DNA from: an uncultured Bacteroidota bacterium
Lineage (GTDB): Bacteria; Bacteroidota; Bacteroidia; Chitinophagales; Chitinophagaceae
Length of the DNA stretch: 64,000 bases
Reading direction: 5' to 3'
NCBI GenBank assembly: GCA_903887415.1
Contig: CAISPO010000003.1
Span: 62,001-126,000, forward strand
Program-made: the position numbers and the translations under genes
Shown here: positions 44,738-48,606 of the stretch, one piece after another
Numbering within the stretch: position 1 is the first letter of the stretch
Layout: each line of letters starts with the position of its first letter
Notes under the pieces: generated by a model
Database searches by the model: none
Told to the model about the DNA's origin: nothing
The model's input: the letters and a program-made list of their open reading frames with translations, nothing else

Positions 44738-45220
44738 CTATTTTCTTGCAAACATGGAACTATTGATACCGATCCCTAATACCAAACTTACACCGGTATA
44801 ATTAGACTCTACACTGGTTAAAAATGACATTATCTTGCCATCTCCTATAAAGCCAAAAGAAATATTCGGCCTGAAATCATCCGACCCGGCTCCCGGATAA
44901 TAAGTACCGGAATAACTATAGTATGCACTCGCCTCCGTTTGCTGCCGGATTGTTCCAATTCCAATATATGCCCTGGTCTGAAAACTGCCCATTTTTGCTA
45001 TACGATGTCCTATGCCAAGATTATATTCTGTAGTTTTGGTCGTGGGATAATATGCTGACGGTGCACTTTGTTTCCCGGCTTCCACCATACACAACACAGT
45101 AAAGTTGTTGCTGCTGATTGCCAGTGTGCCTCCGCTCATAGTAGTTCCAGTCGTATTGATAACGTACATCCCAGATATCGTAAGCTCGTTGGCTTTAGGC
45201 GGTGTTTCTGTAGTTGCTTG
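44738..45220 (-). pseudogene. 3' part of exported-protein gene split by the insertion element
   Basis: Codons 23-179 of a small exported, possibly outer-membrane, protein. Its 5' part is at 48542-48606. Excising 45221-48541 and one 8-base duplication joins the halves in frame as LAQATTETPPKANE. The mature protein is 159 residues, rich in Gly/Ser/Thr/Tyr with alternating hydrophobic stretches (NISFGFIGDGKIMSFL, GVSLVLGIGIN), consistent with a beta-rich barrel. Family not recognised. The internal frame from ATG 45235 begins inside the element and has no signal. Confidence 0.85.
45213..45220. repeat. Target-site duplication, left copy (GTTGCTTG)
   Basis: GTTGCTTG here and again at 48542-48549 flank the element immediately outside its inverted repeats. 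Eight bases is the duplication length reported for IS1595-family elements. Confidence 0.85.
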
Positions 45221-45244
45221 GGTAACAATACCCACTTACACGCA
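45221..45244. repeat. Left terminal inverted repeat of the element
   Basis: Begins GGTAACAATACCCAC and matches the inverse of 48518-48541 at 22 of 24 positions; weaker A/T-rich similarity continues inward. Confidence 0.88.
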
Positions 45245-45284
45245 TATCAAAAATAAATTGAATTTTAACCGAAAACAGGACGTT

Positions 45285-45434
45285 TTACGGTTTCTTATTC
45301 TTAGCGACATTATTCGCTCTGTGCTTTACAGCGGCCTTAATAATATCCATGAACGTACCATTAACTACAAGCCTATCCTCGTAATGGTCGGGGCGATTTG
45401 ATTGAGGCTTTTCTTTTTTAGCGGCTTTTGCCAT
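45285..45434 (-). CDS. 49-residue conserved-looking passenger protein
   Basis: A small leftward gene in the element. Its basic N-terminus (AKAAKKEKPQSNRPDHYEDR) is followed by LVVNGTFMDIIKAAVKH and a basic end. Short proteins with an N-terminal NRPDHY and a central NGTFxD(I/L)(I/F)KA are familiar to me from Bacteroidota genomes, often near mobile DNA, but I cannot verify this without a search. Divergent from the next gene; the two starts are 20 bases apart. Confidence 0.6.
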   Translation of the reverse strand: MAKAAKKEKPQSNRPDHYEDRLVVNGTFMDIIKAAVKHRANNVAKNKKP

Positions 45435-45454
45435 AACACAAAAATACAAAATTT

Positions 45455-45628
45455 ATGACTACTGAAAGTAAAAAAATACAGACTATCGACAATGTTGAAT
45501 TGCAAAAAGCATGGGACGCTTTGTGGGAATTTGCAAACAATGAAATAGATTCCGAACATAGGATTGACCGAAATTCATTTATTGAGATAGGAAAGGAATT
45601 GTTTGAAATAAAAATTAAGAATAGTTAA
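45455..45628 (+). CDS. 57-residue passenger protein, unknown
   Basis: A rightward frame of 57 residues, acidic and helical (VELQKAWDALWEFANNEIDS), starting at ATG 45455. It is divergent from the 49-residue gene and 25 bases ahead of the HEPN gene. No family recognised. The composition is protein-like, so it is probably a real small gene. Confidence 0.5.
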   Translation: MTTESKKIQTIDNVELQKAWDALWEFANNEIDSEHRIDRNSFIEIGKELFEIKIKNS

Positions 45629-45653
45629 TTATATTCGTCCTAAAAGCATTAGG

Positions 45654-46697
45654 ATGAATGTATGTATTCTCATTAATACGAGTTGTTTTTTTCTGCAACC
45701 GTCATCGGAAGGTAAAATAGTTGCCATCCCCCTCCCATTTATTACTGTTACAAATGACCAAGCCTTAAGAGATACAGAAATTTACTCTAAAGATATTTTA
45801 GTGCGCATAGGCTTGATGGCTACGACGCAAAAATATGACTTCGCGTATTCTTTTTTAAACAGTCCAGATTATATCACAGAGGAAAATTTTAATGAGATAG
45901 CTAGGTCAATTTATACGAACTTAAATTATCGGGTGATAGCATTTGAGGAGTTTTTAAATTATTTATGGTTTGTAAAAGATAATAGCGTAAGCGGTAGTTT
46001 AGCTTTAGCATACGCAGAAGAAAATATAAGAACATTAGCATCGTTGCAAAACAATAGAATATGCACAATGTCAGACGGAAAGCGCAGAGACGTGTATTTT
46101 TCGCGGGCTGATATGGAAACGGTATTTAAGATATACGATAAAGCAAATGATATATTTCCTAAAACAACCGTTGGCGAGGTCATTACACCAATTGAATATG
46201 ATGAAAACAATAAAATAAAAACAACTATTATCAAGGCGGATATTAGCACTAAACAGTATAGCGATTTTAATAGAGTACAAAGGGCTTTGTCTCTCCTATC
46301 AATATTAAGAAGCGTAGCATTTTTGCCTTACAAGCTCTCCTTATATATCCCTATTTTGGAAAGTTTATTTTCTCCCAGCGACGGGGAACTTACATTCAAA
46401 GTGTCACAAAGGGTTGCTTTTTATATTGGGGAAGATATGACGGAAAAGAAATTAATTTTTGAACAAGTAAAGCGAGTGTATGAAATCAGGTCAAGATACC
46501 TTCATGGTCAGCCTTTTGAAAAGAAGTCTCTAAAATTAGATTTTGCTGTTGAATCAAAAAACATGGATGGGATATTAAGGAGGGTATTAACAAAGGTAAT
46601 TCTCTATGATTATGCAGTTTTCATAGGTAAAAGCATAGAAGAGTATTTAAATAATTTGGTTTTTAAAGAGGATATATTTTGGCGGATTGTAGAATAA
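45654..46697 (+). CDS. ApeA-like HEPN-domain protein, passenger gene
   Basis: A 347-residue protein. The N-terminal two-thirds is an unrecognised alpha/beta domain. The C-terminal region (about 205-335) has the HEPN layout, with the R-x4-H motif at Arg279-His284 (EIRSRYLHG). HEPN domains with this motif are metal-independent RNases in several defence and toxin systems (RnlA, ApeA, Cas-associated). Its target and trigger are unknown, and it could be part of a defence cargo. A+T rich codon use differs from the surrounding host genes. Confidence 0.75.
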   Translation: MNVCILINTSCFFLQPSSEGKIVAIPLPFITVTNDQALRDTEIYSKDILVRIGLMATTQKYDFAYSFLNSPDYITEENFNEIARSIYTNLNYRVIAFEEFLNYLWFVKDNSVSGSLALAYAEENIRTLASLQNNRICTMSDGKRRDVYFSRADMETVFKIYDKANDIFPKTTVGEVITPIEYDENNKIKTTIIKADISTKQYSDFNRVQRALSLLSILRSVAFLPYKLSLYIPILESLFSPSDGELTFKVSQRVAFYIGEDMTEKKLIFEQVKRVYEIRSRYLHGQPFEKKSLKLDFAVESKNMDGILRRVLTKVILYDYAVFIGKSIEEYLNNLVFKEDIFWRIVE

Positions 46698-46824
46698 TTT
46701 ATTGGGTTACCTTTTATCATTTCGGGTATAAATAAAGCAAATAAATATTCCAAAATAATCACAAAATAAGTAGATTTAGCACGCAATTTTGTAGTACATT
46801 TACTGTAGCAAACTACTTAGCAAA

Positions 46825-47835
46825 ATGAACTTCAATTTCAAGACAATATCAGAATTTAACGACTACTTTAAGGACGAAAAGACTTGTTACGAATACCTTG
46901 AAAGCCAAGTGTGGCAAGGTGTTCCCGTATGTCCACATTGCGCTACTGCTAAGAAACCATACAAGGTAAAAGCGCGTGGCAAGTTCCAAGATATACCTTC
47001 TTACAGGTGTTCTGAGAGGGCTTGCGGCTTGCCTTTCACAGTTCGCACAGATAGTATTTTTGAAGGTAGCAAAGTAGAACTTCGCAAATGGTTACAGGCT
47101 GCGTATGAAATAACAATTAGCAAAAAGGGCATCAGTTCTTATGAACTTGCAACCCGCATCGGGGTAAGTCAGAAAACCGGATGGTTCATAAACCATCGTT
47201 TACGCGCTATGCTCACAGAAACTAATCCTGAAATATTAAGCGGTACGATAGAGGTTGACGAAACTTTCGTGGGTGGGCTTGAAAAGAATAAGCACGTAAG
47301 CAAGAAGGTAAAACGCTCTCCAATCAGCCGCACACTTGATGAAAAGATAGTAACGCCCAAAACGGTTGTATTGGGCTTGCTGCAAAGGGATGGCAAGGTT
47401 CGCAGCTTTGTAGTACCTAATACGCAGGGTGTAACCCTTAACCCCGTTATGAGGGCAAACGTGGAGACGAACTCACGTATCATAAGCGATGGATGGGTTC
47501 CATACAAGGAACTGCAAAACGATTACAGCCACGTTAGCGTTAAGGGTGTTATTGGTAGCTATATTACTTACGGCGACCAGCATACTAACAATATCGAGGG
47601 CTACTGGAGCATATTGAAGCGTGGTATTATCGGCACATTTCACTATGTAAGCCCACAGCATTTGCAACGTTACTGCAATGAGTTTGACCACCGCTACAAT
47701 AACCGCCTACAGCCCATAGATGCAAGGTTTGCTGAAAGTGTAAAGCAATTCGCAGGGGTAAGGTTGAAGTATAGGGAACTGACACCCAACCAGCCGGAGC
47801 CGCACAGGAAATTAAGATACAATAAAGCAAAATAA
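46825..47835 (+). CDS. IS1595-family transposase (ISXO2-like)
   Basis: A 336-residue transposase. It has an N-terminal zinc ribbon (Cys36, Cys39 and Cys62, Cys67), a helix-turn-helix-like region (ISSYELATRIGVSQKTGWFI) and the DDE-type core: Asp145 in IEVDETFVGG, Asp222 in RIISDGWVPY, and NNIEGYWSILKRG (Asn255/256, Glu258, Lys265). All catalytic residues are present and the frame is intact, so the element may still be active. A strong terminator follows at 47841-47863. Confidence 0.93.
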   Translation: MNFNFKTISEFNDYFKDEKTCYEYLESQVWQGVPVCPHCATAKKPYKVKARGKFQDIPSYRCSERACGLPFTVRTDSIFEGSKVELRKWLQAAYEITISKKGISSYELATRIGVSQKTGWFINHRLRAMLTETNPEILSGTIEVDETFVGGLEKNKHVSKKVKRSPISRTLDEKIVTPKTVVLGLLQRDGKVRSFVVPNTQGVTLNPVMRANVETNSRIISDGWVPYKELQNDYSHVSVKGVIGSYITYGDQHTNNIEGYWSILKRGIIGTFHYVSPQHLQRYCNEFDHRYNNRLQPIDARFAESVKQFAGVRLKYRELTPNQPEPHRKLRYNKAK

Positions 47836-47840
47836 ATTTG

Positions 47841-47863
47841 GGCTGCATTTTGCAGCCTTTTTT
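47841..47863 (+). terminator. Terminator of the transposase gene
   Basis: GGCTGCA and TGCAGCC pair around a TTT loop and are followed directly by six T. Confidence 0.85.
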
Positions 47864-47910
47864 ATTACTTTTATTTTTATTACGCATTAAAAACATAAAT
47901 TAACACATAT

Positions 47911-48147
47911 ATGACAAGCTCTGAAATTATTATCATTGTTGCAGCGGTGACTTTTATAGTATTGGTTTTCCTTTTACTTAGAGAAGTAAATTGTTGGTAT
48001 TGGAAAATCAATGAAAGAATTTTTTTGCAAAAAGAAACTAATGTATTATTAAGGCAAATAGCTATTAAGTTAGGTGCTGTCGATGAAGTAAAAAAAGATG
48101 AAAATCATGTTAAGGGCATTATATCTTTCTTTAAGGATAAAGAATAA
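47911..48147 (+). CDS. Small membrane protein in the element
   Basis: A 78-residue protein with one N-terminal hydrophobic helix (IIIIVAAVTFIVLVFLLL) and a polar, partly charged C-terminus (KLGAVDEVKKDENHVKGIIS). No family recognised. It lies between the transposase and the last small gene, within the insertion. Confidence 0.55.
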   Translation: MTSSEIIIIVAAVTFIVLVFLLLREVNCWYWKINERIFLQKETNVLLRQIAIKLGAVDEVKKDENHVKGIISFFKDKE

Positions 48148-48188
48148 AGGGTATTGCTATTAACTATGTTTTTGTACCAAAGGATGAA

Positions 48189-48209
48189 GGATGCAATCGC
48201 AGCCTTTTT
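48189..48209 (+). terminator. Weak terminator after the 78-residue gene
   Basis: GGATGC and GCAGCC pair with one mismatch around an AATC loop and are followed by five T. It supports the later start of the next gene at 48232. Confidence 0.5.
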
Positions 48210-48231
48210 ATTATCTTCGATTAAAAATTAT

Positions 48232-48501
48232 ATGGAAGCTAAAACAAAATTTATTCAGAAACTTGCAGATACCTTAGTAAAAAAGGGTAAGCAAATGAAG
48301 TATGCTGAACTCGCAAATGAACTTAATAAAAAAGGCTTTTTAACTACTCGCGGATATTCTTTTAATGTTGGTGGTAGGGGTATTGCCAAACTTGTATCTG
48401 CTGTTTGGTATAGATTAGATGAGCAAGGACTAACTGGTGATAGGAATAATGTTGAAGTGTCTTTTACGGACGAAAATGGCCAATTACCGCATTATCAATA
48501 A
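48232..48501 (+). CDS. Possible DNA-binding passenger protein, 89 residues
   Basis: A basic protein of 89 residues starting at ATG 48232, after the preceding terminator. Segments such as MKYAELANELNKKGFLTTRG and FNVGGRGIAKLVSAVWYRLD resemble the DNA-binding linker of serine recombinases, which suggests a small winged-helix DNA-binding protein. This is inferred from pattern only. The stop lies 16 bases before the right inverted repeat. Confidence 0.5.
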   Translation: MEAKTKFIQKLADTLVKKGKQMKYAELANELNKKGFLTTRGYSFNVGGRGIAKLVSAVWYRLDEQGLTGDRNNVEVSFTDENGQLPHYQ

Positions 48502-48517
48502 AATTTATATTTACGTC

Positions 48518-48541
48518 TGCGTGTAACTGGGTATTGTTGCC
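48518..48541. repeat. Right terminal inverted repeat of the element
   Basis: Inverse of the left end with two mismatches; ends in TGTTGCC followed by the target duplication. Confidence 0.88.
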
Positions 48542-48606
48542 GTTGCTTGCGCTAACGCATTCATTTTCAACGCTAATACAACGATTCCTATAAATAGTCT
48601 TTTCAT
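48542..48606 (-). pseudogene. 5' part of the split exported-protein gene
   Basis: ATG 48606 begins a signal peptide (KRLFIGIVVLALKMNALAQA) that is cut after 21 codons and two bases by the element. It joins 45212 leftward to give a 179-residue protein. The right target duplication (48542-48549) is included. Confidence 0.85.

Follow-up and report, generated by a model that had tools for sequence, protein, structure and literature searches.

An apparently intact, passenger-carrying IS1595-family element in a Chitinophagaceae genome, with a probable second core gene and a recurring p57/HEPN-like gene pair

Transporter insertion sequences (tIS) are insertion sequences (IS) that enclose passenger genes unrelated to transposition within one pair of ends, as defined in the excerpted text of PMC3129680. 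In the IS1595 family, MTnSag1 (tISSag10) and tISCpe8 are known elements of this kind (PMC5704250, excerpt), and Tn3-family transposons are known to carry toxin-antitoxin passengers, for example TnSod9 with its HEPN/MNT system (PMC7157771, excerpt). Here we describe an element of 3,321 bp (45221-48541) in a window of 64,000 nucleotides (the whole stretch of DNA analyzed; contig CAISPO010000003.1 of assembly GCA_903887415.1, positions 62,001 to 126,000) from an uncultured bacterium of the Chitinophagaceae, Bacteroidota. It encodes an IS1595-family transposase, a small protein at its left tip termed sm1, and four further proteins termed p57, the HEPN-like protein, tm78, and p90. We consider it rather likely that the element as a whole combines an intact IS1595 transporter IS, sm1 as a core gene, and p57 with the HEPN-like protein as a toxin-antitoxin or abortive-infection module.

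The element resembles MTnSag1 (tISSag10) and tISCpe8, as excerpted in PMC5704250, in its IS1595-type DDE transposase, its inverted repeats of about 25 bp, and its passengers inside one end pair. Unlike those elements, which are described there as mobilizable, with lincomycin resistance in tISCpe8, it carries sm1 and the p57/HEPN-like pair, and no mobilization or resistance gene was recognized in it. It is like TnSod9 in that a HEPN-type gene and a small partner are carried by a DDE transposon; in the excerpted text of PMC7157771, however, TnSod9 belongs to the Tn3 family and has a resolvase and an MNT nucleotidyltransferase partner, whereas p57 has no MNT match. Passenger-carrying IS1595 elements and HEPN/MNT passengers in Tn3 transposons are known; an sm1-like gene, a p57/HEPN pair, and tRNA genes within elements were not met in the literature searched on IS1595, passengers, and HEPN (titles and abstract openings, a scope that leaves out the founding IS1595 paper).

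The transposase (46825..47835, forward strand, 336 amino acids (aa)) contains a zinc ribbon and a DDE domain and scored above the cut-offs of DDE_Tnp_IS1595 (PF12762; E=1.4e-35, 123 bits, cut-off 27), Zn_ribbon_IS1595 (PF12760; E=1.7e-9, 37.9 bits, cut-off 25.4), and NF033547 (E=1.9e-50, 171.7 bits, cut-off 75), which confirms the family and zinc ribbon named in a first-pass annotation made from the sequence alone. Residues D145, D222, E258, and K265, which we take to be the DD(N/E)K catalytic residues, are unchanged in an alignment of seven transposases. Members of the IS1595 family duplicate 8 bp of target DNA. In the window, exact copies of GTTGCTTG lie at 45213..45220 and 48542..48549, directly outside terminal inverted repeats at 45221..45244 (forward strand) and 48518..48541 (reverse strand) that match at 22 of 24 positions, as is characteristic of the family. 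A scan for exact 8-bp duplications and inverted repeats around the transposase returned this pair as the best, with the runner-up at 13/24, so that the boundaries and length claimed in the first-pass annotation were found again, as were its five open reading frames (ORFs) besides the transposase. The transposase frame, the ends, and the target duplication are intact. Because an IS1595-family transposase and passenger genes (p57, the HEPN-like gene, tm78, and p90) are enclosed by a single pair of ends, the element is a transporter IS, a known kind, and is apparently intact; the earlier statement that such elements carry passengers is borne out here.

Joining the two flanks with a single copy of the duplication yields a 179-aa ORF with no stop and a signal-peptide-like start, and the event is therefore a genuine insertion that broke a secreted-protein gene. 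The 3' part of this gene lies at 44738..45220 and its 5' part, with the start codon and the signal-peptide-like segment, at 48550..48606, both on the reverse strand. The window element is the sole full-length copy in its genome. No empty site was found among 35 genomes of the genus searched: the flanking DNA matched the window's own genome and had zero matches in the other 34. The GC content of p57, the HEPN-like gene, tm78, and p90 is 0.28-0.35; it is 0.415 for sm1, 0.441 for the transposase, and 0.438 and 0.446 for the flanks.

Related elements were collected for comparison (locus numbers with the prefix L are our own). Transposase matches were present in 34 of 99 genomes; wider stretches were extracted for 40 places, and 19 loci from named genomes were added, six of which duplicate earlier contigs (L079=L057, L081=L058, L084=L060, L089=L061, L090=L059, L094=L049). 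Elements were called bounded when an exact 8-bp duplication accompanied ends matching at 16/24 or more, the lowest retained being 17 (L072); for L083, the second of two 24/24 end pairs was chosen. The bounded set comprises 44 elements including the window's, and hence 43 relatives. Loci with no such pair do not enter the counts, among them L042, L045, L047, L049, L051, L056, L058, L062, L067, L071, L077, L080, L087, L088, L092, L095, L126, and the sm1 loci L113-L121. Because the HEPN-like protein led to L127, sm1 led to L112, and viral contigs supplied L135-L137 and L161, the bounded set is not a random sample. Its elements are 1.6-5.7 kb long, except for the 701-bp L112, and DNA beyond the transposase is therefore the rule in the compared set.

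The gene sm1 (45285..45434, reverse strand) encodes a 49-aa basic protein that reads outward, with its stop 64 bp from the tip. A profile search placed a family member in 28 of the 44 bounded elements (27/43, plus L161), and in 27 of the 28 it lies at most 375 bp from a tip and points toward it; the exception, L072, has a weak internal match (E=2e-5). The distance from stop to tip is 42-83 bp in 21 of the 28 and 149-375 bp in six. Every bounded element with a transposase at least 53% identical to that of the window has sm1, and in the 16 elements that lack it this identity is below 46%. Because sm1 is common to most related elements while their other genes differ, it looks like element machinery.

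The sm1 profile was built from many of the same sequences that were counted, and independent counts therefore weigh more. With a first profile of 15 rows, sm1 was found in 11 of 13 non-duplicate named-genome loci fetched by the transposase alone, the two without it being L092 and L077, whose contig begins 701 bp ahead of the match. Of three loci that the transposase retrieved from viral contigs, two also contain it, and a search of viral contigs with sm1 alone returned two loci, both repeat-bounded elements with a transposase. Among 35 genomes of the genus there were 27 sm1 matches in 14 genomes, 11 of which are profile rows; five of the other 16 lie near a transposase, one is L112, and ten have no transposase found. 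A search of 395 genomes of the phylum gave 10 matches in six genomes; four are profile rows, three stand beside an IS1595 transposase or a fragment of one, one is L112, and two are beside neither.

Pairwise differences between sm1 sequences by codon position were 0.35, 0.25, and 0.63, the pattern expected of a constrained protein. Distances between sm1 sequences correlate with those between transposases over 25 elements (r=0.69, 0 of 5000 permutations). No Pfam family was evident among 18 members scanned (a single match, at E=0.08), tblastn against plasmids and phages gave zero matches at the E limits used, and the predicted structure, a basic tail and one helix with a mean pLDDT of 71.5, points to no particular role. 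Judged by conservation and position, sm1 probably belongs to the core of the element as its second gene and not to the cargo, and it would probably act at the left end as a DNA-binding helper or regulator.

Several results count against this assignment and would fit sm1 being cargo as well, a small DNA-binding or antitoxin-like hitch-hiker with no role in transposition. The gene is absent from the 16 bounded elements noted above and is therefore not required throughout the family; the correlation with the transposase is nil among the 16 closest elements (r=0.09, 810 of 5000 permutations); and the ten genus matches without a transposase make up ten of the 27, although four of these (L117-L120) still end in an IS1595-like tip. 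We nevertheless regard a cargo role for sm1 as unlikely, given its outward orientation near one tip in 27 of 28 elements, its near-constant distance from the tip in 21 while other genes vary, the overall correlation of r=0.69, and its retention in L112, which lacks a transposase. That element (L112:5693-6393, contig C13 of the window's genome) is 701 bp long, has 23/24 ends, and is flanked by an exact 8-bp duplication; over its sm1 half it shares 88% identity with the sm1-bearing end of L064, a full element. Other elements that bear sm1 lie inside viral contigs (L135:1389-7103, L136:4885-8764, L161:1052-6409), and the one in L135 also carries a 980-aa protein that by eye resembles a restriction-modification enzyme. 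An exact-pattern scan of viral contigs with an end consensus gave zero matches.

Among elements without sm1, five (L038, L041, L066, L068, L070) have a different small basic outward-reading ORF near a tip, and in four (L039, L053, L054, L074) the transposase is followed by a protein of 122-138 aa that has a similar F-D-x-I/L stretch close to its end. These ORFs are possible equivalents of sm1 in the nine elements. IS annotation usually consists of a transposase and two ends, and here a tiny unannotated gene is shared at a nearly constant place; a role of sm1 in transposition is therefore open to a direct genetic test.

The second component is a gene pair. The 57-aa protein p57 (45455..45628) is encoded directly before the 347-aa HEPN-like protein (45654..46697), both on the forward strand, and the two recur as a pair. 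They stand together beside an IS1595 transposase in four loci, the window, L058, L126, and L127, with gaps between the two genes of 25, 34, 31, and 33 nt, respectively. L127 is a bounded element with sm1. In L058, which has a transposase, sm1, and one end, the pair is inverted relative to the transposase and sm1 as compared with the window, and in L126 the transposase lies about 2 kb upstream of the pair. The incomplete or unlocated ends at two of the four loci (one end in L058, none in L126) count against the overall reading given above. A profile of p57 made with all four copies and run against 294 genomes of the family recovered its own three members and otherwise marginal matches (E 0.008-0.05), mostly within longer frames; the best Pfam match of p57 is DUF7200, at E=0.038 and under the cut-off.

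The HEPN-like protein was found in 16 of 294 genomes of the family. Ten places have strong matches (E of 5e-41 or better), namely the window, L126, L127, and seven others, and none of these seven has a transposase or p57 (six weaker places stand outside this count). A phylum search with 11 homologues gave matches in 6 of 395 genomes, of which the window's own is strong and five are weak. Homologues also occur in three viral contigs, where the neighboring genes resemble integrase, endolysin, or tail genes by eye; tblastn of the protein against phages gave zero matches at the E limits used. Two chromosomal homologues outside IS (L130 and L131) are located beside genes that by eye resemble restriction or abortive-infection proteins.

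The HEPN label, proposed in the first-pass annotation, agrees with published sequence features of these proteins and drew no Pfam, NCBIfam, or PADLOC match. According to the excerpted text of the HEPN survey (PMC3710099), these proteins end helix 3 with an Rx4-6H motif in which the R is followed by a polar residue, and they often have Ex3[KR] as well. The motif R279-S-x3-H284 of the window protein fits this description; R279, S280, H284, and G285 do not vary across the 11 homologues, E245 is present in 10 of the 11, and position 249 is K or R in 9. In the predicted model, the motif is placed at the end of a helix (262-283), where the loop to the next helix (290-317) begins, as that part of the survey requires. 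The model further resembles ApeA-type HEPN proteins of the survey in that an N-terminal part containing strands is followed by a helical C-terminal part that holds Rx4-6H. It is unlike them in that the N-terminal part is about 200 aa, compared with about 300 aa in the excerpted survey, and in that there is no HEPN_Apea match by Pfam in the window's genome and no PADLOC match for the window protein.

Other results count against a HEPN assignment. The model is weak overall (mean pLDDT 64.8), and the window protein was recognized by none of the Pfam, NCBIfam, PADLOC, PDB-sequence, and fold searches. Foldseek with the model reached no hit under E=0.2 in either PDB or BFVD, a sequence search of PDB returned a single match at E=0.99, Pfam at up to E=10 gave no HEPN family for the 11 homologues, and an hhalign comparison with one marginal member of HEPN_Apea was fruitless at E=0.36. 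One PHROG match, phrog_28161 (E=2.5e-4), has a function-less annotation, and PADLOC on L126 gave a weak CasR match only (E=0.03). No MNT nucleotidyltransferase was met beside the HEPN-like gene, p57 being without a Pfam match above cut-off. The failed searches are what would be expected if the 347-aa protein were some other helical protein that keeps R-S-x3-H-G, with p57 as a small regulator and the pair serving a different passenger function. Against this stand the invariant residues and the location of the motif in the model, and we judge such an alternative fairly unlikely.

We infer a toxin or anti-phage role for the HEPN-like protein. The pair would then act as a module of the toxin-antitoxin or abortive-infection type, with the HEPN-like protein as a possible RNase restrained by p57, by a hairpin at its own start codon, or by both. 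The module might be retained because it shields the host from phages or because it makes loss of the element costly. The hairpin has 14 pairs and covers the start codon (45630..45662, forward strand), and a 71-nt stretch here folds at z=-5.41; it could control translation of the HEPN-like gene. Corresponding hairpins in the other three IS-linked copies are weaker and not significant (z of -1.38, -1.26, and -0.85), and two HEPN-like copies without an IS have no comparable start-codon hairpin.

The remaining two genes of the element, tm78 (47911..48147) and p90 (48232..48501), both on the forward strand, are passengers that may have arrived recently. The former encodes a 78-aa protein with a hydrophobic N-terminal stretch and matches phrog_28494 (E=1.1e-9), which has a function-less annotation. 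The latter encodes an 89-aa protein with weak matches to DpdK (E=0.011) and CcrB (E=0.038), far under the cut-offs, and to DpdK in PADLOC (E=0.032). At the E limits used, tblastn gave zero matches for tm78 in phages and for p90 in plasmids. Neither has a counterpart among the other elements compared, and therefore nothing marks them as partners of the HEPN-like protein. The observations of the first-pass annotation are thus confirmed and its interpretation is partly supported: it had proposed that the cargo may be a selected module of a HEPN protein with small partners, to be compared between copies, and this is supported for p57, which recurs with the HEPN-like gene in four loci, but not for tm78 and p90, which do not recur, or for sm1, which recurs whatever the cargo.

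That passengers mostly differ between elements, and that tm78 and p90 are without counterparts, would be consistent with cargo that is random DNA trapped between two ends with no selection. This is improbable in our view, since p57 and the HEPN-like gene have stayed 25-34 nt apart in four loci whose transposases have diverged, and their frames are intact at 26-39% identity. Passengers of relatives also bear on the matter. We scanned 30 of their proteins with Pfam, 28 out of 69 cargo ORFs that encode 140 aa or more, chosen partly by look, plus two others. Nine of the 30 have domains that occur in defense or toxin-antitoxin systems: PIN (L059), DUF433 (L037), RelA_SpoT (L080), SocA_Panacea (L082, L072, and L081, in the last of which the gene may or may not lie inside the element), N6_Mtase (L063, L087), and GmrSD (L093). 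We presume the link of DUF433 and RelA_SpoT to toxin modules. Three more are homologues of the HEPN-like protein, and the remainder were KilA-N, P63C, an acetyltransferase, or proteins with weak or no match. Defense-type cargo in relatives is suggestive, coming as it does from a hand-picked sample and not an unbiased enrichment test.

The transposase would act on ends of the form GG[T/C]AAC...TTACACGC. In 12 of 14 close elements the inner end motif TTACACGCA recurs, in either orientation and with at least 7/9 positions matching, at 39-65 bp upstream of where the transposase starts; copies at that level are missing in L061 and L037. The combined p value is 3.4e-9 relative to other, overlapping intervals of the same elements, a rough figure for a motif that was picked from an alignment before testing. 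These sites likely give feedback control of the transposase. The window's own copy (46777..46785, forward strand, 7/9) counts against this, as it is not significant in the window element alone, and testing every element with its own 13-mer gave mixed results, with no signal in the window.

Some relatives also carry a tRNA gene. ARAGORN identified one in five of the 43 bounded elements besides the window's (L060:2746-2819, L061:4801-4873, L085:4809-4881, L086:4813-4886, L043:3139-3210), or five in 147.5 kb of elements compared with none in 311 kb of flank (p=0.0034); L061, L085, and L086 are mutually similar and are therefore not independent cases. All five are upstream of the transposase, on the same strand, and above the Rfam threshold. 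A sixth (L042:5984-6056) lies about 105 bp upstream of a transposase in a locus where element ends were not found. Anticodons are for serine in five of the six and for arginine in one. Serine tRNAs usually have a long arm; the serine tRNA bodies here are short and lack it, and an 8-nt anticodon loop is possible in the folds of three. For the window, the idea of a tRNA relic upstream of the transposase was rejected, as none was found there by ARAGORN, run on the window, or by Rfam, run on the element; the Rfam run returned two chance-level matches, both under threshold.

Taken more broadly, a large Bacteroidota group of IS1595 elements may be a two-component transposon of transposase and sm1, a compact shuttle for single defense or toxin modules that also enters phage genomes, with the window element a shuttle for a new ApeA-like HEPN pair and the tRNA gene of some members perhaps supporting or regulating the transposase or offsetting tRNA-cutting cargo. 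We offer this wider picture tentatively and hold it to be somewhat doubtful. As the defense-like passengers suggest, small IS1595 elements may be an overlooked route for defense and toxin modules between Bacteroidota chromosomes and phages. In plasmids, the transposase matched 148 records, each at less than 60% identity.

Directly after the transposase, a consensus scan indicated a terminator-like hairpin with a T run (47840..47865, forward strand). The window's genome contains further IS1595 elements on contigs C71 (L037), C59 (L040), C46 (L039), C39 (L038), and C44 (L122). The C44 copy is decayed, and the transposase frame of L040 is short (198 aa); L037-L040 are all bounded, and their cargo differs from one to another.

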